DNA from: Allacma fusca
Lineage: Eukaryota > Arthropoda > Collembola > Symphypleona > Sminthuridae
Length of the DNA stretch: 64,000 nucleotides
Direction: 5' to 3'
NCBI GenBank assembly: GCA_947179485.1
Contig: OX359245.1
Coordinates: forward strand, 33,963,067-34,027,066
This document shows positions 3,087-57,719 of this stretch, one piece after another (within the stretch, counting starts at the first letter, position 1; the number at the start of each line of letters is the position of its first letter). The translations under genes and the position numbers were made by a program. A model generated the notes under the pieces. It was not told the DNA's origin, ran no database searches, and was given only the letters and a program-made list of their open reading frames with translations.

Positions 3087-3562
3087 CAACGACTTTATCC
3101 GATCGGTTCGGATCACAAATAATAAATATCGGATAATCCGACGGATATCCGAAAACCAAATTTTTAGCGCGTTCGAGCGACCAATAAGAACGAAGTGTGT
3201 AATAACAATTTGTCCAAGGAGTAACTGTGCCGCTTTTTGCGTGTTTTCTTATTAATTCTGTGCTTCAAATTTACAGCGGTGTTTGTAAAGTTTTTCTTCA
3301 GTTTGTAATGTATTCAAAAATGATTAATATTGTGATGTAGTAAAAAGCTAATGCATTTTTGCAGTGAAAATTCCTAATACTTTTTTCCATTATCATTTAA
3401 TGGGGTTATTTCGGATCGGATACGGATGAATAAAATTTTTATCCGAATCCGTAACGGTCGGATCGGATATTAAGAAAACTTATCCGAAAATTTCGTTTCG
3501 GATCGGATTCGGATCGGATTCGGATCGGATATTCGATTTGTCCGGTCGGATGGAAGCCTTAA
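3087..3562. repeat. CGGATC-motif element, copy 1
   Basis: A 475-bp stretch packed with CGGATCGGAT/ATCCGATC words, densest near both ends. The right end reads CGGTCGGATGGAAGCCTTA and the left end ACTTTATCCGATCGG, roughly inverted relative to each other. The left 110 bp recur at about 29,088-29,200, and the right end is the reverse complement of the left end at 28,763. No target duplication was found. It resembles the hAT-like motif-filled elements elsewhere in the window. Confidence 0.6.
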
Positions 3563-3665
3563 TTGGCTGAATTCGGCAGGGATTTCACGTTTTGTAGGGG
3601 ATTTGTTTTACCAACAGGGATTTTGAAAATCGGTGACCTTTTTCTCAGCAGGGATGTTTGGTGCA
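3562..3665. repeat. fragment of GGCAGGGATTTT hAT-like family
   Basis: About 100 bp matching the central and right part of the elements at 32,040-32,399 and 34,168-34,538 (GGCAGGGATTT, CAACAGGGATTTTGAAAATCG, then a GACC...TTCAGCAGGGAT block). Both termini are missing, so it is a truncated copy lying directly against the CGGATC element. Confidence 0.6.
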
Positions 3666-5622
3666 CAGTATCGTGTTGTCAACTTCTCAACATTTTGATC
3701 CACCGTAGACGTCAGATGTTGTTCAAGTAGGATAAAAGATGAGTTTGTATAAGTAATCATGTGTAAAACAGTAGCGTGGATTTGCATATCTTAGACTTAC
3801 ATATGAATACATTTATCACTTTTTTCAATAACAAGTTGAAAAACTGTTTCTCTTTTTAATCCGAAAGTTATGAATACAGAAAGAGGAAGAAGAAGAAACT
3901 CACGCCACTTAAGAAAGTGGGGCAGAACAGTGTCAGTTCATATTTGAAAAATAGTTAGTAGGAAATTTAATTTATTATTTTTAAATTAAGATGAACTATG
4001 ACAAATTTTCATTGCCAAAAGATTTTTTTCCATAAAGCCATTGCGATTTAAATATATACACATATCTGTATGAGTAATATAAGTTCACTTAGGGTTGTCC
4101 CCTCGCGTGCTTAAATTTAGATCTTCATTAAGAATGGAACTCATTCTAAAATTGACACTGTGCAAAGCGATTGTCCAAAATATAGTATTGTCCTACATTT
4201 GACATATTTTCAGTATTAAAACTATTGAAATGTTCGTAAGAGTTTTCAACTTCATTTCCGTAAAGGGGTTGATTTCACAATGTTAGACACGCAGCAAATA
4301 CATTTTAGTTTTAAATAACGCATCAAGTAAAATCTCATAATAATGGATCGCATTACAAATAATTTTTCGCAGCAAAACTTTAACCCTTCATGTATTAACA
4401 CAATCAGAAGCTTCAAATATGCTCGAAATATGCACATAAATAAAAATATACAATAACGTGGCAATAAAGCAAAAGATGGATAAAAAATATTGTCAAACCC
4501 AGAATTGTTGAATTCAGTACGGACTCGTAGCCAAATTGATCAATCATTCTTCTGTTTTGTTCAAAGCTGAAAAACGACACATTATGACACTTTCTCTCGG
4601 CTTGACGAGGAATATTGTGATTCGGAACCTCAGTTTTGTTTCTGTACTTCAAAAATCTGAATTGTTGCGCAAATCCGACTTTATAACTCTTTTCCAGATC
4701 CCATAGCCAGAGGGAAGAAATTTCTGAAAAAATGGCTCCATTTAAATTTTGGGGGAAATTTGTTTTTGCTATAAACATTAAAGGATTCTAATCGAAAGAC
4801 TATTTATTAAAATTATTTGAATAACTCAAACCCCTGGTTTCTTTCCGAGCGGTGGGTTTCAATTTTCCCCAATTTTCATTTCCAAAACCCGAATCGTTAC
4901 AGAAGATGCTTAAAATGGCCCACAACAATAGCATATGCATATTTATTTTCTTCCTTTACATTTTGCACTTTTTAAATTAAGTTCTTTACAATAAAGACTC
5001 CAAATACTCTTTGAAATGGTTTGGTCTAAATCCTGGTAGTTAAGGTTTCCAGATGCTCACAGTGTTTTCCTCAATCACAGGAAGCTCTTCCAACAGCCGT
5101 TAGTATTTAATCACATGACTAATTGACTTAAAGGCATTTTTTGCGGTAAGTTTGTAACCTCAATCTTTTCTGCGAAAATAAACTAAAAGGGGTTAACGCG
5201 ACTTTTACATAGGGAGACATCAAACAGTTCCTTAACACTTAAGTTATAATTAGTTATGTTTCCTGTTACGTATGTGAATTCATAGTTCAAAATTATCCGC
5301 AATGCCTTGTGTATAATAATTCAAATATTTGCACATTCAGTATCAACTTTTAAAAGTAACCGAAATAGAAGAGAGGAATTGGAATTGTGTATAAAGGAAA
5401 ACAGTTGGAACACCCTTTGTATGTATATCTATACATCCTGTGGTTTATTCCAATGTACTGCAGATTTAAGCTAGCGACTGAAAATAATTTGTTTAAGCTG
5501 TCAATTTGCGCAGAAAACGAAAACAAGAATAATTCTAAAATATAAATATGGTTGGGATGTAACTAATATCAGCAGTAGCTACATTTGCATTTTAGTTATT
5601 TTAGCATTTTAACAAGTTTACA
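3666..5622. other. intergenic, no supported gene
   Basis: AT-rich DNA. The only sizeable open frame is a 121-codon minus-strand frame at 4413-4778 with a hydrophobic C-terminal third; I do not recognise it and see no splice partner or repeat copy, so it is not called as a gene. Confidence 0.5.
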
Positions 5623-5985
5623 GATTATATGCATTATCGATTTAGTCCCAATTGTCCCATTACACTTACAGCTCCTTCTACTAAATATGTTTTCGTTTTT
5701 GTACCTTTCACGCTTTCAGCCCATTGATAATTTAGGTGCTTATCAATTATAACAAACTATGTATTTTATTTTAATTTTACATTTTGAACGGTAACGTTTT
5801 TAGCCATATTTTCCTTTTAGACCCTGTAATTAAATAGCGATGAACATTTATCTTAATGGTCTTATTTTGATGGTCATTCTAATTTTGAACAACTTCTGTA
5901 TGCTAACCATCTTATCCCCTTAACTGTATTTATTGCAGACAAGCGCATTAAAGTAATTATTGAGGTTTCTGCATCCCGAATATGT
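5623..5985. repeat. direct repeat, partner of 10,209-10,562
   Basis: About 360 bp shared at high identity with 10,209-10,562, starting GATTATATGCATTATCGATT and ending near GACAAGCGCATTAA. Small indels occur, such as an 11-base TTTTATTTTAAT-type expansion in this copy. No terminal inverted repeats were seen; it reads as a segmental duplication of non-coding DNA. Confidence 0.8.
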
Positions 5986-6227
5986 GGAGGGGTAAAATGG
6001 GTTACGCCTTAGCAAGTAAATCTAAAGCAAGCCACCCGAAAAGAGTCCTTAATAAATTAAAATCGAAAATCTGAATCTCAAATCCAAAACAAGAAGACAA
6101 AGTTACGAAAAGATAATGCTCCACTTCTCAAACGTTTGAATCCCTTGGGCCGTTGTATCTGGAATACAGACGGATGTGCCAGCAATGATATACAACCTGT
6201 TGAAACATGCCTTGAGAAAAAGCCTCA

Positions 6228-6290
6228 TTCGTTAGAAAGGAGAGCCACGGCAACTGTGGGTGACGAGATAAAATGCATGTCCTACTATCA
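6228..6290. repeat. short dispersed repeat (GAGAGCCACGGCAA...GTGGGTGACGAGA)
   Basis: A conserved block, GAGAGCCACGGCAACTGTGG followed by GTGACGAGATAAAATG. It recurs at about 15,815-15,850, 21,625-21,670 and 27,960-27,995, where it follows a pyrimidine tract ending in TTTTAGGTA or TTTTAGGCA. Function unknown. Confidence 0.6.
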
Positions 6291-7977: not shown

Positions 7978-9777
7978 CATAGCTGCACATACATATTCAC
8001 TAGTGTAGTCAAGTCTAATCTTTGTTGGTCGTGGTATTGACTAGTCTAGTCTAGTGAATTCACAACGGTTTCCAAGACATCCTAGTCAAGTCAAGTCAAA
8101 GTCACTTTTTAAGTCGAAAATCCTAGCCAAGTCATTGTAGTCTCCTAGTCACTTGCATTTTATTGTCGCAGCTGTACGTGCTGTTTTATTATTTGCCTTA
8201 TTATTTATTTATTAGCTAAATCAATTCATAACCAAACCCTGAAAACAATATCAAAGGGGGCATGCATAAATTATGTAACGCTAATTTGCCACATTTTTGA
8301 CCACCTCCGACCCCGAGTAACGCATACGTAACGCAGTCATCTAACCCCTACTTTTATACATAACGCAATGATAATTAATTTATGCATAACTTAAATAATA
8401 AGTTCTAAAATTATATTGGAATACTCCCATTAACCTTATTGTGTTAATCCAACTTTAATTCCAATATAGCTACATCGCATTCTGTGAAAGGGCACATTAG
8501 ACACAAATATTTTCACTAATTGTGTCAACAATTCCTACGCGTTAAAATCGGGTCTAATCAAATATTGCGTTACGTAAAAGAGTACACAGGTACTACCTAC
8601 TGTGCGTAACGTTAGCGTAACGTTAAGAAAAACCACCACCGACCATATAAGCGTTACATAATTTATTCATGCCCCAAAGTAGTTCCTATTTTAAGTTTTA
8701 ACTGCGCAAGTATGTATGAAGGGAATGTTCCATTTAATTGGAGGAATTAAATAATTATCTAGCATGAATAAAGAATTGAAACAAATTGTGAAATATTTTG
8801 ATATTCAATGCACTAGAACGGTTAAGGCCCCGGAAACGAACAGATAGTACCGTTTCATAAGTCCAGTTTTGCTGCGTCTGGTTAGGATTTTCTAATTAAT
8901 AAATTATTTATATTTAAATTAATAAATTCTGTGTGCAATATTTGTTGCTCCAACTGCGATGGCTCAACAGAAGCTCTGTGAGCACGAGCAATGACCGACA
9001 GCTCAGAGAATAGTCCGAAATTAGTTGCCTTGACGTGATCTTCTCTAGATGTGATTTCATTTAGTTGTTCGTTTTCTGCACGTTTTGGGGGACGGGTTTT
9101 CTGGCGATGCTTTCCTTTCACGATTTTTATTGTTCAGTCTTTAAACATTTTCTCACTACCTCAGACTTATTTTTGCAGGGAACGTTTACTGCATTGGCTT
9201 CGGCCTCAAACATTTGGAATATTTATATAAATCTGTATGTCTGATGAGATTTCACAGATTTTCGACTGGACCTTGGGCGATTCATGATTTAATATTTTAA
9301 TATAAATGAGTGTTTTTATTAAATTTCTTTAAACAGATACATGACGTATAGAGTGCTGTTGCTGCCTATATTGTGCAATAAATTAACGGCTTGAATAATG
9401 CACTGCATTTTTCCGCACTGAATTTATTAATCGTTAAAGGACACAGTTACAAGTCCTGATATGGGAATTTCTTATGGTTCGGAGCCTTTGTTATTGTTAG
9501 AACTTTCCCCATTTCCTACTTAAACTGCTTGATTGAATGATTTAGGCATCGTTTGAAGACATTCACAAATTGACTAGACTAGTTCCTGCACTTTGTTCAC
9601 CTAGTCAAGTCAAGCCAATCATAATTTCTAGTGCAAGCCTAGTCTAGTCAAGTCAATTCTTTTCGGTATTCTGTGCTTGCTAGTCAAGTCAAACTAGTCA
9701 AATTAACGAAAATCCTTAACTAGTCTAGTCAAGTCTCCCATTTCCTAGTCAAGTCTGACTAGACTAGTGCAGCAGTG
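7978..9777. mobile_element. hAT-like non-autonomous element with CTAGTC arrays; TSD TCTTCAAG
   Basis: The 8-bp duplication TCTTCAAG lies at 7970-7977 and again at 9778-9785. The ends are imperfect inverted repeats: CATAGCTGCAC on the left, CACTGCTGCAC on the right (reverse complement). Inside each end is an array of CTAGTC/AAGTC words (7998-8160 and 9570-9770). No transposase frame is visible in the 1.8 kb, so mobilisation in trans is inferred. A smaller element (8257-8675) is inserted inside it. The 8-bp duplication and CA-type ends are hAT features. Confidence 0.85.
8257..8675. mobile_element. nested 419-bp inverted-repeat element (GGGGCATG ends)
   Basis: The left end is GGGGCATGCATAAATTATG then TAACGC. 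The right end, reverse-complemented, is GGGGCATGAATAAATTATG then TAACGC: about 25 of 26 bases match. It is flanked by AAAG on both sides (8253-8256, 8676-8679). The word GTAACGC recurs inside. It has no coding capacity. A 4-bp duplication does not fit hAT, and the superfamily is left open. Confidence 0.8.
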
Positions 9778-12831: not shown

Positions 12832-14310
12832 TCAAGAAAGTAAAATTGTTAAAGTCCAGTCCTGAATGGTGTGCATAGCTGAGAAAATTATTCCTTTATC
12901 AAAATGGAAAAAATGTCCACAAGCGATCTTGATTGGTTGCAAAGCACTAAGGTGTAATTTATTGTGCTTATAGTTGTATATACTTCTCCAGCGAAACAGT
13001 ATCTCCTGCGATTCTTCATAAATGTTTCCCGAAAATTGGTTATAAACAACACCGACAGCAAAATTCGTGAAAACAAGCGCAACATCTGGAATTATAAAGT
13101 ACCATTGGTGGGTTCGTATCAAGATAACTAACGAAGCTGTTAATGCCAACATCCATGTTAATTGTACCACTGGGCCCACGTCAGAGCATAAGGCGTTAAA
13201 TGTTGTCACCAGTATTTGTACTTGACGGTATTCTTCAATAAATATCTTCATATGCCACACTCCCTTGTTCCCAGTTTTCAAAGAAACCTGGCACCTAAAA
13301 TTAAATTTAGCGTTTGATAACAAAATTGAAATGAAAATTAACAATGTTCATAGTAAACATTAATATTGTTCAGTTTGTGAAGTATGATTATTGCGACGGT
13401 AGTCTTTATAACATTTCGACATTATGCAAACAATGACTGGTTCACACTGAAAATTTTGCGACCAAATCAAAAAGTTGTGTACACGTGTGTTATCGAATGT
13501 GCTATTTCTTGACAAAATTAGGTATCTGATTCATACAACTTACAAATGATCCCGAATAGCGCCTCTAATAACAACTAGGCACGGAAGAGCAGTGCTGTAG
13601 CCAGTTACAAAAATCAGAGTTAGACCTGTCGTTACCATATATGTAATCACCAAAGATGACACAACGTACTTAAATGCACCGAGCGGTGTCGTTATTGGAA
13701 ACCGCATTTGAAATATATGTAGTGGCAAATAGGGATACGCCATTAAAATAAAAATCCACAACATGAAACTAGTAGCACTACAATAAATCACTTGAGCAAC
13801 GATGTCAAATGCTGAATTTCCTTGAGTCTTCTTATCTGGAAAATAGAAACGTCTTTCCATTTGTAAATATGAGATTTGTGTCAACATGAAATGGCACATC
13901 CCATAGCAAAATATTTAAACACTCGATTTCTTACCTTCGAAGCACCTGTAGAATATGAAATATTGATTGTACAAAACCGGGAGGAGCTCGTACATATAAA
14001 TCGACTTCAAATAGATGCATGTACAAAGGAAAACCTGTGCACAATTTGCAATAGTCATTGCCTGAATGTGAAGATCCAATTGATACCATTGATTAGTTAC
14101 CCACAGTTGGGTTAGTCGGTACCAAAAATTGCACGTAAATCCACCGAAACAAACCATTGATAGAATCCAAATCGCAAATCGACATCTGCTTTTCGCAACC
14201 TCGGGACGGTTTTGAATAAAATTCCACTTGATAGGTAGACACCCAGTGTAATGACCCCAAAGTATACCATATTTTAAATATCGGGTAGACAACGGTCCCA
14301 ATACGTGCAT
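12832..14310 (-). CDS. 7-TM chemoreceptor-like protein (gustatory-receptor type), three exons
   Basis: Exons on the minus strand: 14310-13935, 13835-13544 and 13294-12832. The donors (GTAAGAAA, GTAAGTTG) and acceptors (TTTTCCAG, AATTTTAG) have phases that join (1, then 2), giving 376 residues plus stop, the usual length for insect gustatory receptors. Hydrophobic segments fit about seven helices: FAIWILSMVCFGGFTCNFWY, TIANCAQVFLCTCIYL, SATSFMLWIFILMAYPYL, VVSSLVITYMVTTGLTLIFV, LTWMLALTASLVILI, IIPDVALVFTNFAVGVVY, and a C-terminal helix. The expected role is a ligand-gated channel in chemosensory neurons. Identification rests on length, topology and the presence of paralogous fragments at 21.0, 23.5 and 37.4-38.1 kb, not on a diagnostic motif. 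Another multi-pass membrane family is possible. No lesion was seen. Confidence 0.6.
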
Positions 14311-15044: not shown

Positions 15045-15345
15045 ATTTGGTTCGAAGAACACATCTATTTGAAGTTTAGTTTTTTCGAACTGAATGATTA
15101 CATTACTTTTGTCAATACATTTGGGTTTTATTGCAATGGTCTACATGTCGAGCATACTTTAACCTGCTGTGCAATATTATTAATTTAAATTGATACATTA
15201 AATTAGTACAGTCAATTGGAAAAATGTTTATGCAGCATTAATATTGACGCTTTTATGCAACTCAGGCAACTTATATAAGTGATATATTTGAGCGCACAAA
15301 TATGTAATGTTGTTCGAGTTGATTCCCATGAGAATCTTAACGCTT
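15045..15345. repeat. direct repeat, partner of 31,722-32,005
   Basis: Shares TTCGAAGAACACA, GTCAATACATTTGGGTTT and TGCTGTGCAATATTA blocks, in the same order, with 31,722-32,005. It lies upstream of chemoreceptor exon-like sequence and probably travelled with it during duplication. Confidence 0.7.
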
Positions 15346-18822: not shown

Positions 18823-20383
18823 CAGTGTTGCGACCAATTGCAAATAATATTTTAAAATTCAATTTCAAATCCGAATCAAACCAAATACAAATAGGCATTT
18901 TCTAATAAATTGGTTTATCGAATCAAATTCAGTTGTGTTTTTAATTTGAAATTGGTTTTGAAATAGGGGTGAAATTCAAATCAAGTATTAATTTGTCATT
19001 TGAAAACCAAATCAATTTCGAATCCAGATTGACTTAATGCAAAATTTGAATTTGAAATTGGTTTTGAACTTGGGTATTAATTGTATCGCATAAAATCTAA
19101 AACATTGAAAGCTTCTGGACTATCAAACAAATGATTTTGTGCATCGCTCATCGCAAGATGAGCTTAAATCTTACCAGGTACCAAAATTATTATAAAACAA
19201 AAATCAAATTGTATAATGGAAGAACAGGGAGATACTCAATATCCAGCAGTTGGCGAAACTTCAGTAATTCAGGTTCGAAAAGCGGGTCCATCGCCCACAA
19301 CCATTTCAAGATCAAAGATTTGATGCATTCAATGCAATTATTGCAAGTAATTACTAGTACACATACAAAATGTTAAACAATCAAAATATTTTCAAGTATA
19401 GTTCTTGAATGCAAAGCCGGTCACCGAATTTTCATACAAGAAACATAATCAGTATGTATTCAAACGAAGAGTAAACGAGTTGATTAGTATTATTTTTACA
19501 GCCGAATTTTGTTAAGGATCCCAAGTACACCACAGTAATTTCTTGGCACGCTTAATTTATTTAAGTTCTTCTTTGCCCTTTTCTTTTTTAATTAATGCTG
19601 TATACATTGTAATTTAGGACTATTAAAACCTATTGAAAGTATTACATCCCCGAAGAAATGCCTACTAATTTTGAACCGGAACACGATGTTCTGTATGAAA
19701 GTCTAATGAATCGGCCTAATCGTAATTCAACGGATGAATTGAAAACGTATTTAGCTGCGTCTAGTGCCGTTTCCTCATGAAAAATGGGGTGCTTTGTTAT
19801 TGGAAGGTTATAGTTTAAATTAAAATTAACACAATAAATAAGTTGAACTACTATTTTGGCAACTAGTAACTTGTTTTATGAAAATGAACACATTCCATAA
19901 TGTGTCAAAAAGGGCTACATTTGTTTAGGAGCTTCAACAACTGTTTGAATGTGGAGTTCTTATTCGCAACAGTTACCGACTTGCTGACTGTCAAAATGAT
20001 GCTAATGCATGCTTTTGCTACTTAAACTTGTAAAAAGGCTTAATACAGTTGTTAGCGAAATGCTCAGTGAGCTTAGTGAGTAGACTTGTTTGGCTGGCGT
20101 GTACTCAACCATACTCACCTGTTTGGGATAGCTTAAACTTGAAAACCAAGTTCAAATCCAATTTCAAATCAAATGCAATTTCGGATAATTTGTCGATTTG
20201 AAATGCAAATAAAATTCGGACTCAAATGAAACACTGCATTTGGTTTGATCAAATCGGTTATTTATTCAATTGATTTGGTTTTTCAAATCCAAATCAATTT
20301 AGGAGTCGTGAATAAATTGCATTTGAAATCCGGATTCAAATGCAATTTCGGATCTGAAAATGTTTGATTTGGTCGCAACATTG
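18823..20383. mobile_element. hAT-like non-autonomous element with TTTGAAAT arrays; TSD GCCGAAAC
   Basis: Perfect 8-bp target duplication GCCGAAAC at 18815-18822 and 20384-20391. The inverted ends are CAGTGTTGCGACCAA and, reverse-complemented from the right, CAATGTTGCGACCAA (14 of 15). Both subterminal zones (18,835-19,060 and 20,130-20,365) are filled with AATTTGAAATTGG, CAAATCAAAT and similar words. The middle has no transposase frame. The CAGTG start and 8-bp duplication are classic hAT traits. Confidence 0.9.
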
Positions 20384-22799: not shown

Positions 22800-23580
22800 G
22801 CTATATAAACAATTCGCCACGTAGATACCTAACAAATAGTTTTAAAAAAACACACAGTTTCACGCAGACAAGTGTCAAAATACTGAATACAAATTATTGT
22901 GATTATAAATATATTGACATCCATGGGAATTAGTATTTGCATTTCATCAATGAACAGGGTAATAATAACAGGGCTTGTTTATAAATTCAATTTTGGACAA
23001 GTCTTTTTGTTTCCAAATATAAAATTTTGCATTTAGTGAAACGGTTTGCATTTAATTTAAAATACAACTAAACCCTGCAATCTCTTGATAATTTTTGAGC
23101 TACCTCGAGTTCTGAACAAATGGAGGATATACCAAGGCAGCTCTTGTGCATACTTCATATTGATCAGTGCAAGCCGAGACAAATCGAGTTTCATATGCAT
23201 CATAATTCCATAAAACTGAGAGAATCGATAATTCCCGAGATCCAGTAGTCCAGTAACAGTAGTAACAAGTCCAGTAGTGGATTATTAACAATTTAGTGGG
23301 TAATTTCTCTCAATAAATGAAATTCACATAAATGTACATAAAAAGACACATTCTTCAGGCAATAATTATATTATAATCACTACCTGCATTTCCGAATTTA
23401 AAACAGACCATCGATCATTCACCCATATTTGCGTAGCTCTGTAATTAAAATTGCCTAAATATCACCGAAGAAAAGCATTGGTAGCAACCAAAGTTTTAGG
23501 TAAGATCTGCGTTTTCGCGAATTCGGAGAAAATTCTTGCAAGATTCCACTTGATTTGCAATCATTCCATGTAATGACTAC
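22800..23580 (-). repeat. duplicated block with chemoreceptor exon-1 remnant, partner of 36,820-37,545
   Basis: Collinear with 36,820-37,545 at roughly three-quarters identity (shared ACAGTTT..GCAGACAAGTG, TTTGCATTTAATTTAAA and TGAGCTACCT..GTTCTGAACAAATGG). At its right end, on the minus strand (23,580-23,410), is a broken first-exon copy: HYMEWLQIKWN, EFAKTQ, then in another frame YRATQIWVNDRW, aligning with the intact gene's YRLTQLWVTNQW. It contains a frameshift and stop. Confidence 0.75.
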
Positions 23581-23583
23581 AAA

Positions 23584-24412
23584 GATGGGCCCCAGCCTAG
23601 ATCTAGGATGGAATCTCGGCATAAGTGCTAGGCTGGCTTACAATTGAGATAAAATGTAGGCCAGCGTCTAGGATGGGCTCCACAAAGTGACTGGGGTACA
23701 GGGAAGATATAGGGAAGTTGCCAAATAATGGAACATTATGGGTCTAAAGTAGGCAAGGCCAAACGGAAACTATATTGCCTAGACGGAATATAGGTAGGCT
23801 AGCATATATGGCCCATGCATACAGTCAATTCTGTAAACGTTTTTTTCGGACACACTAGTTCTACAATTCGAAATCTACATCAAAACATTTTAAATTTAGT
23901 CGAGCAAATGGGAAATAATAACTATTGTTTGCCGTCCTTGCTATTACTTAGGACTTCGGAGATATTTATAGATTTATAGTTTTTTGTTCGCTTTTATTCT
24001 TTGCTTTTTATTTTGGTTCGTCTACTTTCTGATTCACTATTCGATTGAAATGGCGGCTGAAGGCGTTAAAAAATACTGAGAATGGATGACAACACAATTC
24101 AACGTGTAGTAAAGTAAGCACACGCACAAGTACGTGCAAAAGGTATTATGCTTTTATATGTATATGTATGAATGAAGGGTATGAATATTGGCTTATGTGT
24201 AGGAAAGGTTGAGAGGATGCCTTCTAGGCAAGGGTTCGCTTGAATGCATTTCCTATACACCATTCTGGGTAGGCTAAGCCGCCAAGCGCTCTTGGATGCC
24301 GTAAATGGGGGGTGTTTTAATTGTACAAGCTCTGCTTATAGGCCATGAGGTGGGGCCGCCGATGATTACTGAAACTGGTTAGGATATAGGCTGGGGTTAT
24401 ACAGAGGCCCAT
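23584..24412. repeat. motif-filled element with ATGGGCC ends
   Basis: The left end is ATGGGCCCCAGCCTAG; the right end, reverse-complemented, is ATGGGCCTCTGTATAACCCC followed by AGCCTA. Inside, words such as CTAGGATGG, TAGGCTGG and GTAGGCTA recur in both orientations. No clean target duplication was found. Similar in design to the hAT-like elements. Confidence 0.45.
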
Positions 24413-25351
24413 GTTTGAATGACTACCTTTTAGACAATGGCGGCAATACATATATAGATTTAGGTAATTCACAGAAGATGCTAATCTAAATGTTCATGAA
24501 TTGAGGTTGAAACAAGAATATTTTCGAATATATTTGGGTTTCATCGTAGTTTCATTTTTTTTAAATTGGGATTTAATATAAGAACTTGTATCTATTGATA
24601 CGCTGCGGATGCTGGATTTCATTTTAACAGTGTGCGTCAACGCAATACTTTATTCCCCTCTACAATAATGTAATTTAATTGTAGTAATGCACATAAATAA
24701 AACCCACGGGTATTTTAAACTTTCAGAGTCAATTGAAACATACATAGTACATTCAACAGCGGTAGTCGTGATTCTTTTCAGGCAGTTTAGATAGATGGGA
24801 CATATTTCACCAAAACAAATTCTTTTCTTCACTTGTGGTATAACAAGTAAGTTTATTTAATAATATAGTAATTTGCCACGGACACTGAACTTGAATTAGG
24901 TAAGATAAATGAATGCATTTACCAATATGTCTGAGATGTAACTGTTTCTCAAGTTTCTTCTCTCAAACACAGTGTCTTGGACAATTTAACCAAATAACTG
25001 GGTATCCAAAACTTATTCAGGAAACGTAAAGTAACGGACAAGTCATTCGAGTTTAGAGCTGTACAACTGTGTAGATCAAAGTAAATAACATGACCTTGAT
25101 ACAGATTATTTTTCCTTAAAACGAATAACCTTATAACTTCTAGGTAATTTATCACGAATTTTAAGTTGGCTCCACTAATTTGTTTACAGCCCTCATATAC
25201 ATTGAATTTAATGTACATATTTATCCAGTAGTAAGTAAGTACTGCAAACAAACCAAAACAGTTAAAGAGTTGATTTCAAATGTTTCAAATTCGTGCTTTT
25301 ATCTTCAAAATATTTATTTGAACATTTCACTACAGACAATTTGAGAATTGC
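24413..25351. other. intergenic, nothing supported
   Basis: AT-rich DNA with a few minus-strand frames of 60-100 codons (24,650-24,832; 24,949-25,251) that have no recognised motif, splice partner or second copy. Confidence 0.4.
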
Positions 25352-25677
25352 CAGAGCTATGTATTTCGAAATTGTATTTTGTATTTGAAATACGTAATGG
25401 ATAAAGTTACAAAATAAACAAATACAAAATATCATAACGTTCGTTGATCCTGAAAATACGAAATACAAAATACAATGGAGATTGTGGTGCTGACAAAACA
25501 CGAAATACAAAATACAATGGAAATTCTCGGTGCTGACAAAATACGAAATACAAAATATCTTGAAACATTTACAGCGACGAAAATGCCAAATACGGAATGT
25601 ATTTCAAATATATTTTTATTATTACAAATGCAGTATACTGTTTGAAACTTAATATTTCGAAATATTCCATACCTCTG
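25352..25677. repeat. AAATACGAAATAC-motif element
   Basis: The ends are CAGAGCTATGTATTTCGAAA and, reverse-complemented, CAGAGGTATGGAATATTTCG, with CGAAATACAAAATAC arrays between. The CAGAG start and motif filling match the hAT-like set, but the flanking 8-mers differ. Confidence 0.55.
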
Positions 25678-27360: not shown

Positions 27361-28762
27361 AAACAACAATTAAACTATAATCCAACGATACATTCCATAT
27401 GATGCATTTGTGAGTATTTAGTATTATTTTCATCTTGAGGTCGTAACTAGCACGAATTCTACCAAGAATAGACATAGATATGATGATTACGAAATAGCTA
27501 TTGAGAATTTCTACCGGATTCAGACCGATGTGGCCCGATTGGCAATCTCAGGATACTATGTTGCGGAAAGCTGGGACAACTGTTTTTCCCATTATTCTCT
27601 CTTACATATATATGTAGTTGTAACGACAGACGTGACGAAACGGTACATTATTTACCCGTTAGTCACAAGACTCGGTACATTAATGTAACATTTCTGGAAG
27701 TTCAGATATGGATTCGCATTTTGCATTGTCACGTGTGTCTTCTGGAACGAGAAATAATTTCAATCATTGGCGTTATTTCTTTACAACGTCACCAGAATTT
27801 TAATAAAATTCCACTTCCATAAACCCCACTTCCAAAAAACCAATAAAAGAATTATGCAAGACACTTAAACCAATTCCACCAGACACTGGTTATAGAGCCA
27901 ACATTTCATTTTTTCTATCTAAATTCTCTCATTTTTAGGTATTAGAATTTTTGATTAGTTAGAGGGAGAGCCACGGCAAATGTGGGTGACAAGACACTTT
28001 GCGCGATGATGAAGTAGGCGAGTTCTCTGCTCTAAACACCCGCTCATTCAGTCTGAATCATTTTTATTCCCTTTTCTGCTCAGAGGGTTTTCCAGCTGAG
28101 AGGGAGAAGGTGGTCAGTAAAAATGATTTCTTTATCCACGACCCTGCCTCTGAACCTCTCCAGTCTGACATCAGCTCTTACACTTGGGTCTCATGCAGGA
28201 TACTAGTCGCAGTTCTTGAAAATAACTTTCAGGTTCACTTGAGTGTGTTAAACCGGTTATCCAAATTGTTTATTTTGTATTAAAAAGTAATTTGTTCGTA
28301 GTAATACATATTTCCTAAATTGGGTCTAACATTTTAGGTAATACCAAGACCCAAATACCTTGGTTTTGAAAAATAACCATGTCTAGCTCAATTGCATTGA
28401 ATGATGCATACCGCACTATTGTAATAATATAAATCTATAATATAATATATAAAAATCATAGTATTTCTGTAAAAAACTGAATTAAATGTATTATTTTGAT
28501 GCTCAGTTCATATTAATAGAAGCGTCCATAAATACATAATATGCTCTCTAATAGTTGTTCAGACGCAAGCAGTGCGGGGAGGTACATTTTACCCCGTACT
28601 AGTGCTGGGCGTTTCCATGTTAGCATGTTATTCTATTCTATGCTTAAATTGTGAGAATCCGGCTTCTATTAATTCTATTCTACTTTCCAGAATTTTTTGT
28701 TTCCCTGTATTTCACTTCGATGCCTTTACTAATACTTTCTATTCTGCAACTACTTCTATATA
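27361..28762. repeat. duplicated chemoreceptor-flank blocks (partners at 12.2-12.4, 15.55-16.6 kb)
   Basis: 27,361-27,565 pairs with 12,240-12,420 and keeps a minus-strand open frame. 27,690-27,870 pairs with 15,540-15,700. 27,890-28,762 pairs with 15,730-16,595, including the SKNxFFIHxPAS coding-like segment and the AATTGTGAGAATCCGGCT tract. Together they form a third, gene-less copy of the chemoreceptor neighbourhood. Confidence 0.7.
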
Positions 28763-29215
28763 AGGCTTCCATCCGATCGGATGATCCGTGGATATCGGAA
28801 GATCGGATATCCGAAAGTTCGGATCGGATACACTGCTTATCACAACTGCTAACACAATCCGATCGGATCGGATACGTACCTCTAATAGTGAATTTCCTAT
28901 ATAGTGGTTTCCTCTTAGACAGCATTCCCTTTATATGGGCACGTTTAAAATTTCCCTAGGATTACATTTACATTACATTGTAGTAAGATATAATGGCATC
29001 CCCATTTATTGGCAGGTAATTAGCCATCCCTTAGGAACCACTATATAGGAAATTCACTTTATCAGGTTATCGGATTCGGATCGGATTTAGAAACGACTTT
29101 GTCCAATCGGTTCGGATCACAAATAGTGAATACCGGATCATCCGACGGATAACCGAAAATCAAATGTTTAGCGCGTTCGAGAGATCAATAAGAACGAAGT
29201 GTGCAGCAACAATAC
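28763..29215. repeat. CGGATC-motif element, copy 2, with small element inside
   Basis: Begins TAAGGCTTCCATCCGATCGG (inverse of the right end of copy 1) and is rich in CGGATC/ATCCGA. From 29,088 it matches the left 110 bp of copy 1 (ACGACTTTGTCC, GTTTAGCGCGTTCGAGAGA). It was inserted into the duplicated block after CTTCTATA. At 28,886-29,059 it contains a 174-bp element with ends TAGTGAATTTCCTATATAGT and the inverse ACTATATAGGAAATTCACTT; a single end of that element also lies at 11,870-11,893. Confidence 0.65.
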
Positions 29216-29457: not shown

Positions 29458-31352
29458 CAGAGCTGCGCTCAAGTGCAAGTAGTACTTGACAAGTATCAAG
29501 TCAGGTCAAGTTCGGGATCATGAGCGTTTCTACTTGGCTGAATCGGGTCAAGTTCATGTATTTGCTGGATCCGAACTTGGAACTTCAAGTCGGTTCTGGT
29601 CCAAGTGCAAGCCCACAGAATTGACTTGCACTAAGGATCAAGTTCAAGTTCGGATCTGGGAATAGATTTCACTTGAACCCGAACTTGGACTTTCAAGTAC
29701 CGATTCAAGTATCTTAGTTCCAACGTTTGATTCCTTTGTGCGTTCTTCGCCATTGGTTGTTCGCACTCTGTAACACACATTCTAGAAACTAGTGATGCCA
29801 ATGGTCTGGTCTGATCCAGTCGTTCGGACCAGACCCGACCAAAGACGATGCTGAAGACGGTCCAGAACACCATTGAGAGCAATTAAATAATTACATTTTA
29901 TCCCGTCAAATTATTCTTTTATCCCCAGAAATGTCCATTTTAATTTGTTCCATGGGATTTCGTCGATAATAAACTTATAAATTTTTATTTTGCGTACGTT
30001 TAAGACCATGATCCTGTGATCGGGTCTGGTCTGGTCCTGAAGCTGGACCAATTGTATCTGGTATGGTCCAACTAGGTAACATTTTCAGATGGTACACGTG
30101 GATTCAAACAAAGCATAGCACATGTTTTAGTACTCAAATATTATGTTTCAAAACTCATGTAAATCCAGTGCATTTTGCCCCGTTCTCCTAGGACACGTCA
30201 CCAAAGTTTCAAAATTTAAAACGGTACAACAGGTCCTTTAGACCTGTCTTTTAGAAAAAAATCAATGTTAAATCCCATAAGGATTTTGAATTTTTAAAAG
30301 TCGGCGAAATTTTGAATTTTACTATTTCAAGGAAATTCAAGTTTTAACGTGCACATTTATATATCCTTCAACAAAATTCCCCCAAAAGTAATCCCTCCAT
30401 CATGGCGCATCCGTATGTATATGTAGTCGATAAGATATATTCACTCCGTATTTCATACGCATGAATTAGACTATTGAGTTTTGTCTTATGATATACACAT
30501 GTACAACATTAGTAAATTACAAATTAAACTAAACTACCCCCCCCGCAAAAATATCGTCACATTTTATTCAAAAGTAATCTCTCCGATGTGTGCACTACAG
30601 ATTTCCGCCTGAATGAAGTTTTGCCCTATGATGTACAAACAGGGTTACTCAAACGAAATTGTCGTGGCTTTTATGCCTATCCACCTTACGGACTGGCGGC
30701 AGTGTTGTATCAGACCGGACCAGACCATACAACTCTGGGACCAGACCGGACCAGACCAATAACGCTCCATTATAAATTGTCCGGACCAGACCATTGGCAT
30801 CCCTACTAGAAACCATGCCTGCAGAGATATGCACAGAAGTTGCAGCTCACTTTCACTTGGACTGACTGTTGTGTATTCTGTAAATCGTCGTGCTTAAAAC
30901 TATTCTTCTAATTTTTCATTTTTTTCATCATTTTTGAAAAACTGTTGAAGTAAAGTGTCAGGTGAGACTGTAACACTAGGAAGAAACCACGAGTGAACCC
31001 GAATCTGATTTTAATAGAGACGATGGAAATTGAAAACCTTTAGCTCCACCCGTTGGAATGGTTTTGCGACTTCATACTACAAAGTTGCAAGATTCAAGTA
31101 ATTACTTGAAATCCAAGTTCGGGTTCAAGTCAATTCCAAGTTCGGTTCTCAAGATTTATGGACCCCACATTCAAGTATCAGATCAAGTTTGGGTTTAGGA
31201 AAAATTACTTGCAAGATATGACTTGGTATGGCAAGTAATTCCTGGGAACCGAAACGCCAAGTTCGGGTACTGACAAATATCTAATTGAAAGTTCAAGTGC
31301 AGGTCAAGTTCAAGTTCGGATCCTTAAAATATTTGACCCGAACGCACATCTG
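29458..31352. mobile_element. hAT-like non-autonomous element with CAAGTTCGG arrays; TSD TTAATGAT
   Basis: Perfect 8-bp duplication TTAATGAT at 29,450-29,457 and 31,353-31,360. The ends are CAGAGCTGCGCTCAAGT on the left and CAGATGTGCGTTCGGGT (reverse complement) on the right. Both ends are filled with CAAGTTCGG, CCGAACTTG and CAAGTGCAAG words. A second hAT-like element (29,790-30,805) is nested inside. No transposase frame. Confidence 0.9.
29790..30805. mobile_element. hAT-like element with GGTCTGGTC arrays, nested; TSD CTAGAAAC
   Basis: Perfect 8-bp duplication CTAGAAAC at 29,782-29,789 and 30,806-30,813. The ends are TAGTGATGCCAATGGTCTGG and TAGGGATGCCAATGGTCTGG (right end reverse-complemented), 19 of 20 matching. 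GGTCTGGTC / GACCAGACC words fill both ends. Its insertion into the CAAGTTCGG element shows it is the younger of the two. No coding capacity. Confidence 0.92.
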
Positions 31353-32039: not shown

Positions 32040-32399
32040 CAGGGGTCGGTTTTTGTAGGAAGACGGGAAGATTCTCCCCAGGGAAAAAATATTTCTGGCA
32101 GGGAAAATACCGAAGAGAAGGGATTTATTTTTACGAACAGGGATTTTTAAAATCGTTGTCCCTTTTTGGCAGGGATTTTCAAATTTGTTGGCAGGGATTT
32201 TTGGCTTGATTAGCCTAATTTGGCAGGGATTTCCCGTCTTGTAAGGCATTTTTTTTGCCAGAAGGGATTTTGAAAATCGTTGACCTCTCTTTCAGCAGGG
32301 ATTTTTGAAATCGTTGAGGACCTACCGGCAGGGAGATAATAGTCCGCAGGGAAATTCAGAAATGATCTTCCAGGGAGATTTACAAAAATCCGACCCCTG
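32040..32399. mobile_element. hAT-like element, GGCAGGGATTTT family, copy 1; TSD CAAGATTG
   Basis: Perfect 8-bp duplication CAAGATTG at 32,032-32,039 and 32,400-32,407. The ends are CAGGGGTCGGTTTTTGT and, reverse-complemented, CAGGGGTCGGATTTTTGT. The 360-bp interior consists of GGCAGGGATTTTTG-like units. A 143-codon-scale open frame across it is a by-product of the repeats. Confidence 0.93.
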
Positions 32400-33218: not shown

Positions 33219-33509
33219 CAGCAAAATGTTTCAATTCTCAACGTATCCAAATAGTCGGGTACAATGGGGGTGGGTACGAGTAAATGACCCCATTATACCC
33301 GTACCCCGTGGGTATGTACCCATTTTGAAATCCTTGTACCAATACCCGTATCCGTACCCGAAATTTTGAACCGACCAAAGTGTACCCGGGTAGTACCCGA
33401 AATTGTTCGGGTAAACAAAATCGGTACCCGGGTAGTACCCATACCCGTACTCATACCCGTTAACCCGAGTATTACCCATACCCGTGCCGAGAACTGCTTC
33501 CCAGCACTG
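33219..33509. repeat. ACCCGGGTA-motif element
   Basis: Dense TACCCG/CGGGTA words. The right end, reverse-complemented, reads CAGTGCTGGGAAGCAGTTCT, a hAT-type terminus; the left end CAGCAAAATGTTTCAATTCT matches it weakly. No target duplication. The YGYGYW-rich frame on the minus strand is a repeat artefact. Confidence 0.5.
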
Positions 33510-33645
33510 AATCCTGTTCATGCAAAACGTTTTTAAGCGGGTTGTAGTTGTAAAATTGAAGGAAGACTATTTTTAGAAAAAGGCTGAAGGCAAAAAAATC
33601 CGTGCACTGCACTGATTTGAGCAAACTTCGTTTGCATGTGCAGGA

Positions 33646-34079: not shown

Positions 34080-34806
34080 TTCCGTGTGTCCTTCCGCGCG
34101 ATATCTCAGAAACAACTGGACCAATTTCAATGAAATATTTTATGGAGTACTTGTGTCAAAAGTAAGGCAGGGGTCGGATTTTTGTGGGAAGATGGGAAGA
34201 TTCTTCCCAGGGAAAACATATTTCTGGCAGGGAAAATACCAAAGAGAAGGGATTTATTTTTACGAACAGGGATTTTTTGGCAGGGATTTTCAAATCTGTT
34301 GACGTGTTTCAGGGAAATTTATTAAGCAATCCGGGATTTTTGGATTGATTGGGCTAATTTGGCAGGGATTTCACGTCTTGTAAGGAATTTGTTTTGCCAA
34401 CAGGGATTTTGAAAATCGTTGACCTTTCTTTCAGCACGGATTTTTGAAATCGTTGAGGACCTACCAGCAAGGAAATAACAGTCAGCAGGGAAATTCAGAA
34501 ATGATATTCCAGGGAGATTTACAAAAATCCGACCCCTGAAGTAAGGCTGAGTTTGTATTTGGTTCAAATCGGCTGGATATTTTTTTCGAAAACAATTCTT
34601 GAATTTTTGGACTTCAAGTCAAATGAAAGTTATCTCCAAAACTACTAAACCGATTACAATGAAACTTTCTGTGAATATTACATATGTTAATAGGAATGGT
34701 TATTGACTATGCGTTTGAAATCGACCGGATTGTTTTATCGTAAAAAATTCTGAAATTTCGAAAAAATTTATCCTACTTTGACGGCGGTAGCTGCATAACG
34801 CCACCC
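34080..34806. mobile_element. second copy of the GGGTGGCG element, reverse orientation, split by a hAT-like insertion
   Basis: Reverse-complement relative of 20,459-20,859. It shares TTCCGTGTGTCC, TTTCAATGAAA, TGTCAAAAGTAAGG, then after the insertion CTGAGTTTGTATTTGGTT and TTTATCCTACTTTGACG...CGCCACCCTA. The 34,168-34,538 element sits exactly at AAGTAAGG, duplicating it. The left terminal repeat is not recognisable. Confidence 0.75.
34168..34538. mobile_element. hAT-like element, GGCAGGGATTTT family, copy 2; TSD AAGTAAGG
   Basis: Perfect 8-bp duplication AAGTAAGG at 34,160-34,167 and 34,539-34,546. The ends are CAGGGGTCGGATTTTTGT both ways. It is close to copy 1 in sequence and length (371 bp against 360 bp). 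The empty site is known from the uninterrupted relative at 20.7 kb (AAAGTAAGGCTCAG in reverse complement), which confirms the borders. Confidence 0.95.
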
Positions 34807-50140: not shown

Positions 50141-50588
50141 TCATCGGCTTATCCTTATCTCCGTGAAAAGGTTAATTTTCCGTGATAACCAGCGACGGAT
50201 CTTGAATGTGTCAGTTACATCAGCATATTAAACGTTCGAATCTGAAAACAAATCACACTATTGCCTTGTTTGCTTTCCCTGATATAAAACCTACAATATA
50301 TGTATATAGAATAGGGTTTGAATGTACGCTACTGACAAGGGAGCCTTTTGAGGTGGATAACATAGGTGAAAATAAAACCTTTTGTGAGCAAAGGATCTTG
50401 GTCCAATACCCAAACAAGCAAAAACGTGAAGACAGTTCGCGCTAGTTCCGGCCTGAGGCTGCCCGAAAGTTTTAATTTGATTTTTTATTGGTCAAGTAGG
50501 GGGTGTATGTTTAAAAATTCCATGTTAAATCCCGTAAGAAATTTCCATTATCGAATTTGGAGATATAAACTTTGCATTGGATAAAAAG
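50141..50588. other. intergenic with one arm of an inverted repeat
   Basis: 50,376-50,420 (TTTGTGAGCAAAGGATCTTG, then GTCCAATACCCAAAC) is an imperfect inverse of about 50,996-51,045 (GTTTGGGCATTGGACCAAGT). The minisatellite lies between the arms. No gene called. Confidence 0.45.
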
Positions 50589-50800
50589 TGTCACAAAGGC
50601 TTCAATGACTTGTGATTGTTAAAAAATATGTCACAAAGGTTTCACGACATCTTATTGGTCAAAATATGTCATATAGGGTTAAATGAACTACGAATGATCA
50701 TAATGTGTAACAATGACTTCACTAACCTGTGATTGGTCGAATGTTTCCAAATGTTTCAATGACCTGTAAATGGTCGAAATGTGTCACAAAGGCTTCAATT
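50589..50800. repeat. minisatellite, 38-40 bp unit, about 5.5 copies
   Basis: Units start at 50,589, 50,629, 50,667, 50,706, 50,744 and 50,782 (partial), each opening TGTCACAAAGG or a variant and carrying CTGTGATTGGTCGAAATG or a variant. Several units hold ATTGG, the reverse of a CCAAT box. Confidence 0.85.
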
Positions 50801-52176
50801 TCATTCATTCCGTCCATCATACGAATGTAATGGAGAGATTCTCGTACATTTACTGCTCCTACGTAGAAAAGTGACTTGAAATTCTGAAAAGTTATTCTTA
50901 GAAATGAGGCTTGAAAGGGCTTTGTACAATTGGAACATTAATTGCAAAACCTCAGACAAACATTGCCTGTAGACACAAAATATTTTAATACGTCAACATG
51001 CAGGTTTGGGCATTGGACCAAGTTCCTACTCTCACACAAAGTTTCCTTTCGATCCGCGCTATCCACTCCTAGAGGTTCCCCTGTGAGTCATGGTTGGGCG
51101 TCCATTATTTTATTCAATAGTTATCTCATTGACATGGAGAGAAAGGTTATCCTCAAAGGTACATCTGAGCTCCTTTTTGCACATTGGATTCTCCTCTGTC
51201 CGTTTAGCAAGAGCTGCATGGCAGTTGTCCTCAAAACTAAACAAGGCTTGACGGTATGGGATTTTTGCGGTGCTAATTGCTCGTGTAATCGTGCAGAGTT
51301 ATATTATTATCGCAGTTGAAACTCTTTTAGTAAGTTGTTGCATAAGAGGAAATTATTTTTCAACGGAAATCGACTCAGTCATTATCACTCAAGTGAATAA
51401 GCTATAGTATCAGAGAGTGCAAACATTTTACATTCCATAAGGGCTATATTTACAACACGGAGTCCTATCACAGTCGTGTCTTTCTTTGCTCCTATCTTGT
51501 TTTGATACTACGGTGATGTTCTTCCCTCTCACAGTTAGATCACCGTTGACTCACAATTAACAATGGACATATATATGTAGAAGAGCAGCTTAGGCTGAGG
51601 AGTGCTAGCATAAAGGTTTTCAATAATTTATATCAGCGATGTATCTACCTGAGGCTACAATAACAGTATCAAAGCAAAACAATGATTCACTTAGATCCGC
51701 TTATGCGAAAATCCGTGATCGTTTTGCAAGAGGGGTGATTCATCTGTGTGCAACAAGTTGCACATCCGATTTCCTGACTAATCAAGTCCTTAAAAGGAAA
51801 TACTTCCCACATTTACATTTCATAATCCCTTGTAGGTATTCTATTAGCGTATTTTGGTTTGAGCATATAGATGCTGCAAACGACTAGAAATACACCCCTA
51901 AAAATTAAATAACTCATCCATAAAATCGTTACCTGGTAAATTGGATATTAGAATATACATAAATGAACATGTGTAACAAACTTCCGCTTGTGTATATTTA
52001 TGAGCTCTTAGAACGCATCTATTCTGTCAAATAAAGATTGGCTGTATTTTCTCATTGGAATTATTTGTGGCTCATATACATAGTCTTCGTTGGAATATCC
52101 GTGCTATTATTTATTATTTACTTGGTCCATGTTAAATTAAATTGATTCTTCTGGGGATTTTTCAACCTAAGTTAAA
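50801..52176. other. intergenic, nothing firmly supported
   Basis: A 125-codon plus-strand frame (50,942-51,319) starts inside the inverted-repeat arm. An 82-codon frame (51,639-51,887) has no recognised feature. Neither has splice sites or a copy that would support it. Confidence 0.35.
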
Positions 52177-52953: not shown

Positions 52954-53147
52954 TAGTGCTATCGCACTAGTCAATTCTAGTCGATTCCCTCTATGTTAAC
53001 ATTCTGACTATTCCAGTCTATTCTACTCCTTTTTAATTTGCATCAAGGCAATTCAAGTCTAGTCTATTCAATTTGATCCTACACCCGGGTTATTCTATTC
53101 AATTCCCTAGTTTCCTAGTCTAGTCGGACTAGACTAGGGCAGCACTG
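52954..53147. repeat. short CTAGTC-motif hAT-like element
   Basis: The left end is TAGTGCTATCGCACTAGTC; the right end, reverse-complemented, is CAGTGCTGCCCTAGTCTAGT. Filled with CTAGTC/CTATTC words like the 7,978-9,777 element, but only 194 bp long. The flanking 8-mers do not match. Confidence 0.6.
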
Positions 53148-54376: not shown

Positions 54377-55287
54377 CAGAGCTTCTGCCGGGGACGGGGA
54401 CGGGACGTCGGGACACTGGACGGACCGGGACGGGACGTCCCCGGGGACAAAATAATTGTCCCCATGTCGTGATCGGGACGGGACGGGGACAAAAAAATTG
54501 TACCAATTATATTCGGGACGGGACGGGGACAAAAAAAATGTCCCCATTATATCAGGGACGGGACGGGGACAAAACAAATTGTCCCCACTATATTCGGGAC
54601 GGGACGGGGACAAAACAAATTGTCCCCACTATATTCGGGACGGGGACAAAAACAATTGTCCCCATTATATTCGCGACATGCTTTTTGGTCGTGTATATAA
54701 CGTGGCGGGACGAGCAAGCATAGCAAAACAAGGATAACGTTTCAGCTTTAATGCTCGTGAGTAAACTATTCTGTGAACATTATTTCACCGAATGTAAGAC
54801 ATTCGATTTCAGGTTGTAGAAAATGAGGCTTGTTGGTCAAAAAATTCAGGAAGAATCTTGAAGCCACGATTCTATAAATGTGTTTTTATGTGTTTGGTAT
54901 AAATATTGTTTGTACGAAATTTTCCTCATGTTCCGATTTTCTGTTTTATTATTATTCTGTTTTTAGTAATTATCGGGACGGTACAGGAATTTCGTTCACA
55001 TGCCACGATTTTCGGGGCCGGGGACAATATTTTTTTAATTTTGGGGACGGGACGGGGACAACGTTTTTTAAAAATTTTGGGGACGGGACGGGGACAAGAT
55101 TTTTGTCCCCATGTCCTGACTTTCGGGACGGGACCGGGGACAACGTTTTTAAAAATTTTTGGGGACGGGACGGGGACATGGTTTTTGTCCCCGTGTCCCG
55201 ATTGACGGGACGGGACTGGGGACAAAGGTTTTTAAAAAATATCGGGACGGGGACGGGACAATAATTTTGTCCCCAACAGAAGCACTG
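54377..55287. mobile_element. hAT-like non-autonomous element with GGGACGGGAC arrays; TSD GATGAGTG
   Basis: Perfect 8-bp duplication GATGAGTG at 54,369-54,376 and 55,288-55,295. The ends are CAGAGCTTCTGCCGGGGAC and, reverse-complemented, CAGTGCTTCTGTTGGGGAC. Two arrays (54,393-54,670 and 54,975-55,275) of GGGACGGGACGGGGACAA units flank an AT-rich core. The long D/G/T-rich frames here on both strands come from the array, not from a gene. Confidence 0.92.
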
Positions 55288-55295
55288 GATGAGTG

Positions 55296-56462: not shown

Positions 56463-57015
56463 GAAACATTAGTTAACACACCGAAATTGATCCAAGACTG
56501 TCATTTTTAGATGAATAGGCGCAAAACAAATGAGCTTCGGCCATGCAGTAACTCATGTAGGGAGGAGTATGGACCTTAAAATGATAAGGAGGAGGAATAG
56601 TTCGTTTTCCCTGTGAATCTAAAGTAGTTCTTGAAGCACAAAGCATGGATTGAGGTTTAGTGTACGAAGTTTTAAAACTTTTATTTGGTAAGGGTTCTGC
56701 AGCGGAAACATAAGTTGAGGGTTGGGAGTGACAATATGTGGAGATGCGTTTTATAGGTTAATGTGAATTTGTTAACAAAGGATGCAGTATCACAATCGGG
56801 TTTAATTATAAGTTGGGTAATGGATCAGAATGGATCGTATGTACGTTCGGAGAATGCTTTCCATTCGGCAGAAGCAGCAGATAGTACTCTTAAAGCAAAT
56901 GCTGATTGAAATTCGTGCGTATAAGTTATTGCAGATGAAGCATTCAATAACTTAGACGGAGGGTCCTGTACTTCACACAACATTTGATTCATCATATCAC
57001 CGCAGTATTACCGTA
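56463..57015 (-). pseudogene. decayed coding remnant, possibly retroelement gag
   Basis: The minus strand reads MMNQMLCEVQDPPSKLLNAS and FALRVLSAASAEWKAFSE, then a TGA, then DTASFVNKFTLTYKT. After a frame change it reads YVSAAEPLPNKSFKTSYTK and PPPYHFKVHTPPYMSYCMAE to a stop near 56,463. It clearly once encoded a protein of at least 170 residues. The helix-rich first part and proline-rich second part would fit a gag, but no zinc knuckle or pol is next to it. Confidence 0.45.
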
Positions 57016-57129
57016 CGTTTTCCGTTTGGTAAAATCAAGGTTGCAGTGATAGTCAAAGAAATGTTTACCAATGCTTGAAAAATCGGAAAATTGTAGACCC
57101 ACATATTTCGACCTTTTGGCAAGAATAAA

Positions 57130-57215
57130 ATTTGCGTTCCAGTGCGCATCCATTCCTGTTCCTGTTCCCCGAAATCTGGGTGTCTCCTGTTCCGGTGGAC
57201 CGCCCTAAAGTATAC
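57130..57215. repeat. CCTGTTCC-motif stretch
   Basis: A short run of ATTCCTGTTCCTGTTCCCC and CTCCTGTTCCGGTGGACC, similar in style to the motif arrays of the hAT-like elements; too short to define ends. Confidence 0.3.
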
Positions 57216-57547
57216 TAACCAGTAATGTTCCCGTTGATAACTAGCACACTATTATTGACAGGAGATAGAGAATTCTTTAAACGTAATTACTTTTATAATT
57301 TTATTTAAGATTCTTATTGGGTGTTTTGATAGTCCAATTTGAAATGACGTGAATAATCGTGAGCAAATTCCGCCCAAAAAAACGCACTTATTACAACCAA
57401 TTACTTTTTAGGCAACATTGCAGTACATGAGTTAAAGGTATGTGTATAGATAGTGTGCTACCTGGATACAATCATTGTGGATACTACCCAGGTAATCTTG
57501 ATTTTAGACAATAAAGTGGGTGCAGTTACGGGTACATATTTGTATGA

Positions 57548-57719
57548 TTGTGGTCCGAGTTTTGTAAATTTCCCTGGAAGATCATTTCTGAATTTCCTTG
57601 CTGGATCTTGTGTCCCTGCCGGGAGGTGCTCAACGATTCCCAAAATCCCTTTTTCCTGTCAAAAATAATTTTTTCTGGGAAGAATCTTCCCGTCTTCCCA
57701 CAAACATCCGAACCCTCGT
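57548..57719. repeat. GGCAGGGATTTT-family element, diverged copy, inverted
   Basis: Reverse orientation relative to 32,040-32,399. The left end TGTGGTCCGAGTTTTGT and right end AACATCCGAACCCTCG are worn versions of CAGGGGTCGGATTTTTG. The flanks TGTATGAT / TGTATGGG agree in 6 of 8 positions, consistent with an old 8-bp duplication. The middle has been deleted down to 172 bp. Confidence 0.65.

Follow-up and report, generated by a model that had tools for sequence, protein, structure and literature searches.

Duplication-flanked hAT-like elements with similar tips and private subterminal words in a 64-kb stretch of the Allacma fusca genome

The window analysed in this study is a stretch of 64,000 nucleotides from the collembolan Allacma fusca (positions 33963067-34027066 of contig OX359245.1, genome 392.7 Mb), in which a set of short mobile elements resembling the hAT superfamily of DNA transposons was recognised (Table 1). 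Eight of them combine an exact 8-base-pair (bp) target duplication with YA tips and matching inverted ends, one more than the seven proposed in the initial annotation of this DNA, and two of the eight (32040 and 34168; elements are named by their first position) are by alignment copies of one family, CAGGGA. The rest of the recognised set consists of two CGGATC-family, two CAGGGA-family and one CTAGTC-family fragment, together with arrays of CGGGTA and AAATAC. The case for the CGGATC, ACCCG and AAATAC loci is weaker, as they appear truncated or without a clean duplication. The small hairpin element that splits one CGGATC copy has 32-bp arms. In CTAGTC element 7978 the tip starts with CAT at one end and CAC at the other, and word sites lie at 8000, 8041, 8082 and 8123 on the left and at 9601, 9639, 9680 and 9720 on the right.

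Table 1. Recognised elements, arrays and fragments. Positions are those of the window, except for L181 and L182, which are loci elsewhere in the genome.
Feature	Position	Strand	Duplication	Tips (left / right)	Remark
CGGATC-family copy	3087..3561	+		right, reverse complement: TAAGGCTTCCATCC	left part missing; tip read by eye, aligned to second CGGATC copy
CAGGGA-family fragment	3571..3660	+			adjoins CGGATC copy; by alignment, borders approximate
CTAGTC element	7978..9777	+	TCTTCAAG	CATAGCTGCAC / CACTGCTGCAC	
ATTTGAAAT element	18823..20383	+	GCCGAAAC	CAGTGTTGCGA / CAATGTTGCGA	many genome copies
TAGGC-word element	23580..24417	+	AATGACTA	CAAAGATGGGC / CAAACATGGGC	weak array
AAATAC array	25352..25677	+		CAGAGCTATG / CAGAGGTATG	42-bp units; ends picked by eye; no clean duplication
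CGGATC-family copy	28761..29215	+		left: TAAGGCTTCCATCC	right part missing; split by hairpin element 28878-29067
CAAGTTCGG element	29458..31352	+	TTAATGAT	CAGAGCTGCGC / CAGATGTGCGT	tips 8/11 matching
GGTCTGGTC element	29790..30805	+	CTAGAAAC	TAGTGATGCCA / TAGGGATGCCA	nested within 29458-31352
CAGGGA (GGCAGGGATTTT) element	32040..32399	+	CAAGATTG	CAGGGGTCGG	
CGGGTA (ACCCG) array	33250..33510	+		right only: CAGTGCTGGG	tip by eye; duplication not found
Second CAGGGA element	34168..34538	+	AAGTAAGG	CAGGGGTCGGATTT at both ends	
Diverged short CTAGTC-type element (relic)	52954..53147	+			sites 52967, 53008, 53049, 53090; ends picked by eye; no duplication
GACGGG element	54377..55287	+	GATGAGTG	CAGAGCTTCTG / CAGTGCTTCTG	
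CAGGGA-family fragment	57550..57718	-			by alignment, borders approximate
CCTTC-word element	L181:2700-3258		GTCGCAAC	CAGAGATGCGC / CAGGGATGCGC	
TATCG-word element	L182:383-1400		CTAGGACC	TAGGGATGCCA	

When tips were scored as matches out of 11 and compared with 60 Markov-3 shuffles, six elements had 10 or 11 matches where 0.02 were expected, one had 9 (0.1 expected) and three had 8 (0.95 expected), with arrays in 29458 only among the last three. The status of 29458 as an element therefore rests on its arrays. Dense word arrays had been described in the subterminal zones, and the word matches do stop at the element borders: the 250 bp beyond the ends held none at 12 of the 16 borders and 1, 1, 2 and 2 at the other four, compared with 2-15 inside. 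The tips are also similar across the seven families with duplications (0.56 versus 0.37 in the control, with 1 of 1500 controls as high), and remain so beyond the first three bases (0.49 versus 0.27, with 0 of 1500 as high). These values come from elements with duplications only because the ends of 25352, 33250 and 52954 were selected by their likeness to hAT tips, and the test was redone without them; a five-family subset of the test was likewise selected by likeness.

Each family carries its own word, as had been claimed. With the 16-bp tips stripped, one CAGGGA copy used and word lengths of 6, 7 and 8, the best match of every left zone was its own right zone (7/7 families), and the true pairing ranked first of 5040. 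When two extra elements from elsewhere in the genome (see below) were included, self-pairing was 9/9 and 0 of 100,000 relabellings were as good. Seven hand-picked words resembled one another no more closely than random decamers do (4.62 versus 4.54 matches). It should be noted that zone-level Markov-2 shuffles retain the words, and five of the eight elements (7978, 23580, 29790, 34168 and 54377) did not exceed the shuffle maxima, so the claim of private words relies on the cross-pairing test instead.

The words had also been thought to run in opposite orientation at the two ends. Per-word strand counts rule this out as a general rule, since the direction is mostly the same at both ends in five of the seven families with duplications. 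Counted at the left and right ends, GACGGG (12/11), CAGGGA (5/4) and AGTCAAGTC (3/5) occur forward with no reverse copies (0/0), TAGGC occurs 4/4 times forward and 2/0 reverse, and CAAGT 12/11 forward and 6/3 reverse. The word TTTGAAAT is mixed (forward 3/2, reverse 1/1), and GGTCTGGTC (forward 1/0, reverse 1/4) is the sole clear case of opposite orientation. A second test took 7-mers that the left zone has on a single strand and compared direct with inverted sharing; direct sharing was higher in seven of eight elements, narrowly in 18823 (34:28) and 29790 (5:3), and 29458 gave 22:24. The extra elements gave 46:22 (L181) and 21:28 (L182). Strand composition may add to the direct sharing. Nested in CTAGTC element 7978 is another element (8257-8676) with 32-bp arms that are 91% complementary and ends GGGGCATG, whose own word, GTAACGC, reads forward in the left end and in reverse in the right end. 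Its tips are not hAT-like, and word arrays in this stretch are thus not confined to hAT-type elements.

A genome search with element 18823 found at least 122 matching pieces, and 20 near-full-length copies were examined with an end-finding script that allowed a shift of up to 10 bases per end. The concern that copies elsewhere might lack consistent ends or duplications was not borne out for this family: the duplication was exact (8/8) in 13 of the 20 copies and matched at 7/8 or better in 17, with none in the other three (L191, L194 and L204); in L194 the script located no proper end. Both tips were exactly CAGTGTTGCGACCA in 16 copies and one tip had one change in three, while fuzzy words stood at both ends in all 20 (15-17 at the left, 12-15 at the right and 3-7 in the middle). 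A comparison of variability across 21 aligned copies (0.017 and 0.019 in the arrays, 0.040 in the middle) was discarded because the middle consists of two length classes. Eight loci from this search include approximately 22 kb that does not belong to 18823 copies, and there the same scan found by chance two further duplication-flanked elements, each with a new word, against 0.125 hits in shuffles of the eight loci together. It is therefore doubtful that a suite of this kind within 60 kb is unusual, as had been suggested. The word CCTTC occurs 25 times in the L181 element and 3 times in the remainder of the locus, and TATCG 15 times in the L182 element compared with 2. The L181 element is inserted into the end of an 18823 copy, to which its duplication belongs. 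The L182 element and window element 29790 share an 11-bp tip, TAGGGATGCCA, which 29790 has at its right end, and by blastn the two have the 11-12 bp tips alone in common, with no 29790 word in the L182 element. Viral contigs gave 0, 28, 20, 9 and at least 120 stretches; word counts were computed for 177 of these, and the best and the low guanine-plus-cytosine rows, which were the ones viewed, showed tandem runs or scattered words and no recognisable hAT-like element.

Borders, duplications, private words and similar tips are direct observations, and the reading favoured here, with a probability of roughly 0.7, is that these elements are non-autonomous hAT transposons of related transposases, with a shared tip and family-specific words on which the N-terminal domain docks. 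A group of related transposases would recognise the common short tip (about YAGWGMTGC) through its core, while docking on the many word copies inside the tips would be the task of a distinct domain for DNA binding at the N-terminus (BED finger plus Hermes-type domain), and this family-specific docking would keep the families apart. The words would then be transposase-binding sites and the fingers would have diverged. The earlier proposal of related transposases with diverged DNA specificity agrees with the finding of similar tips beside unrelated words, the best case being L182 and 29790. The arrays would probably lengthen by tandem duplication, with words and spacing then held by selection on mobilisation while spacers decay, and in some families a recurrence of approximately 41 bp, about four helical turns, may reflect a multimeric transposase lying on the end. 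Should every word have a finger of its own, this genome would supply a naturally occurring series of fingers paired with their words on one scaffold, from which a BED-finger recognition code could be read and which would show how families escape cross-mobilisation. A shared spacing would make it possible to read the geometry of the transposase complex from sequence data alone.

Element-specific subterminal repeats in hAT ends are already published for Herves, Ac, Kat1 and Hermes. In the mosquito element Herves, the motif CG/AATTCAT repeated inside both ends suffices for transposase binding, and hAT transposases are stated to bind different sequences, ensuring specificity (PMC3143072). However, Herves is one element with one motif, whereas the genome studied here combines nine or more words with a single set of similar tips. 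Yellan et al. reported a diverse set of binding motifs for CGGBP-type/hAT-19 transposon and domesticated proteins, most of them containing CGG or CGC and some being AT-rich, and four hAT proteins had motifs that fit the subterminal regions of their own elements (PMC8097297). The window words are likewise partly CGG-containing or AT-rich, but there, unlike here, the proteins are known, and the portion of that paper available does not describe any spacing of arrays. Maize Ac/Ds has 11-bp tips, and its transposase binds cooperatively to AAACGG repeats within the outermost 200 bp, which non-autonomous copies retain (PMC3260210), a single word per family compared with the many words across the window families. 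In the house fly element Hermes, BED domains recognise AAG(T/C) repeats that lie inside the ends, the two ends differ, and the distance of a repeat from the tip is critical (PMC10368747); the solved complex binds within the first 35 bp and the accessible text describes no recurrence near 41 bp, unlike some window families. Kat1 has binding or activity-linked repeats inside its ends whose polarity differs between ends, unlike most window families. No paper on a shared recurrence of this length or on many private words in one genome was found in the literature searched, which covers few subscription papers. The initial observation is mostly confirmed, and the present analysis adds two candidate regularities, namely the same or a similar tip with a different word, and the partial 41-bp recurrence.

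The recurrence was measured with word-free lag counts, which, when added up across ten families, have maxima at 5-6, 35-37, 40-43 and 45-47 bp and a low at 22-29 bp. When families were taken singly (five settings, 400 shuffles each), the recurrence of CTAGTC and CGGGTA was matched by 0/400 shuffles, that of AAATAC by 0-1/400 and that of GACGGG, depending on settings, by 0-218 of 400; it is robust in three of the ten families and found in the fourth, GACGGG, in some settings. The 36-46 band used at first was picked post hoc, and a later test takes the maximum over lags 20-65 with 1000 shuffles. The ten-family mean then peaks at a lag of 42, with 1/1000 shuffles as high, and with 31/1000 when GACGGG and AAATAC are removed, 14/1000 when CTAGTC is removed and 965/1000 when the six other families stand alone. 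In a contrast set of 600 random stretches outside elements, none matched the recurrence of the 7978 left end, 52954, CGGGTA or AAATAC, while 13 matched that of the 7978 right end and 3 that of the GACGGG left end. Site-to-site distances, hand-listed for five families, have a mean of 41.5 bp (n=31), and GACGGG element 54377 has units of 40-41 bp at the left and a spacing of 36-45 bp at the right. A single hAT lineage in which the shared transposase assembly preserved the common tip and, in several families, a 41-bp ruler of four helical turns, and whose finger-read word was repeatedly replaced to give many mutually isolated families in one genome, is a tentative extension of these results that we consider less likely to be true than false.

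How the arrays arise appears to differ between families. Whole units of approximately 40 bp are repeated in GACGGG and AAATAC, spacers included, and these two arrays are probably products of recent tandem duplication; for them the suggestion that arrays expand by a replication process is supported. In CTAGTC (site starts picked by hand), identity among sites is 0.64-0.85 within ends and 0.70 between the copies 7978 and 52954, the spacers are at the level of shuffled sequence within each 7978 end and between the two copies, and the left ends of both copies have the spacing 41,41,41. This persistence of sites and spacing among unrelated spacers suggests that they are kept by selection on mobilisation, and both processes may act. 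Alternatively, all arrays could be by-products of tandem duplication or slippage in replication or gap repair, with an accidental unit fixed per family and the words unread. The entire units of GACGGG and AAATAC would agree with this, as would short tandem runs of 5-7 bp in many zones, the gains and losses between words by which CAGGGA copies 32040 and 34168 differ, and an unrelated 39-bp repeat at 50584-50799, which means that duplication of approximately 40 bp is not limited to these elements. However, such a process does not account well for CTAGTC sites that are alike between unlike spacers, for the same word at both ends of each family or for the published hAT repeats being transposase-bound, and this explanation is regarded as unlikely.

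The tips of hAT elements are short, imperfectly inverted and start with YA(G/A), and the target preference of Ac-type hAT elements is nTnnnnAn. The tips of the seven families fit this start, with CAT and CAC at the two ends of 7978, and both the 8-bp target-site duplication and the subterminal repeats of short motifs are hAT features. The hAT-like assignment made initially is thus upheld by the duplications in the window and in the genome copies of one family, together with the YA tips. Another superfamily with 8-bp duplications, such as P or Merlin, was considered because no hAT transposase was found with Pfam among 10 relic pieces and because nTnnnnAn, counted by eye, fits only 2/8 window duplications. 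Among the exact genome-copy duplications the same pattern fits 4/13 by eye. However, hAT-type YA tips with dense subterminal words speak against it, and the 13 genome-copy duplications have by eye T at position 2 in nine and A at position 7 in seven, a base preference that leans to the hAT pattern, so that another superfamily seems quite improbable. That these arrays are plain satellites with no relation to the borders of elements, as the listing of some of them by Tandem Repeats Finder could suggest, is ruled out for the eight duplication-flanked elements by the word-free outer 250 bp at most borders and by words at both ends of all 20 18823-family copies at different sites. It may still apply to AAATAC and CGGGTA, where the borders are unsecured, and is the least credible explanation overall.

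Several results weigh against the interpretation as non-autonomous hAT transposons with docking words and, in part, a 41-bp spacing. No transposase gene or relic was confirmed, as the 10 relic pieces (of 71 open pieces) had no Pfam match, and the genome copies examined come from one family, 18823. The scan itself picks YA starts, that is, hAT-type ends, and the control of the tip test copies that choice only partly. Six of the ten families have no recurrence near 41 bp (27-372 of 400 shuffles match), which rules out a universal 41-bp ruler, and without CTAGTC and CGGGTA the lag peak is equalled by 151/1000 shuffles. The GACGGG right end fails the contrast with random stretches, 491/600 of which exceed it, and the spacers of the CTAGTC relic 52954 are slightly alike (0.38 versus 0.27). 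Open reading frames of at least 120 amino acids number only three in the eight elements, all overlapping GACGGG arrays, and a piece at 19637-19777 that resembled a hAT C-terminus by eye received no support from Pfam.

Some other features of the window were recorded. Scans for transfer RNAs and Rfam families found none. Open frames at 12832-15608 and 37425-38175 (-) bear a tentative likeness to arthropod chemoreceptors; three of them had no Pfam match. A stretch of approximately 300 bp is present twice in direct orientation at 25886-26490 (by eye). The 39-bp tandem repeat mentioned above is flanked by two 90-bp arms that are 72% complementary (50331-51088), possibly another DNA transposon, and retroelement remains with reverse transcriptase and integrase zinc-binding matches lie at 59020-62643.

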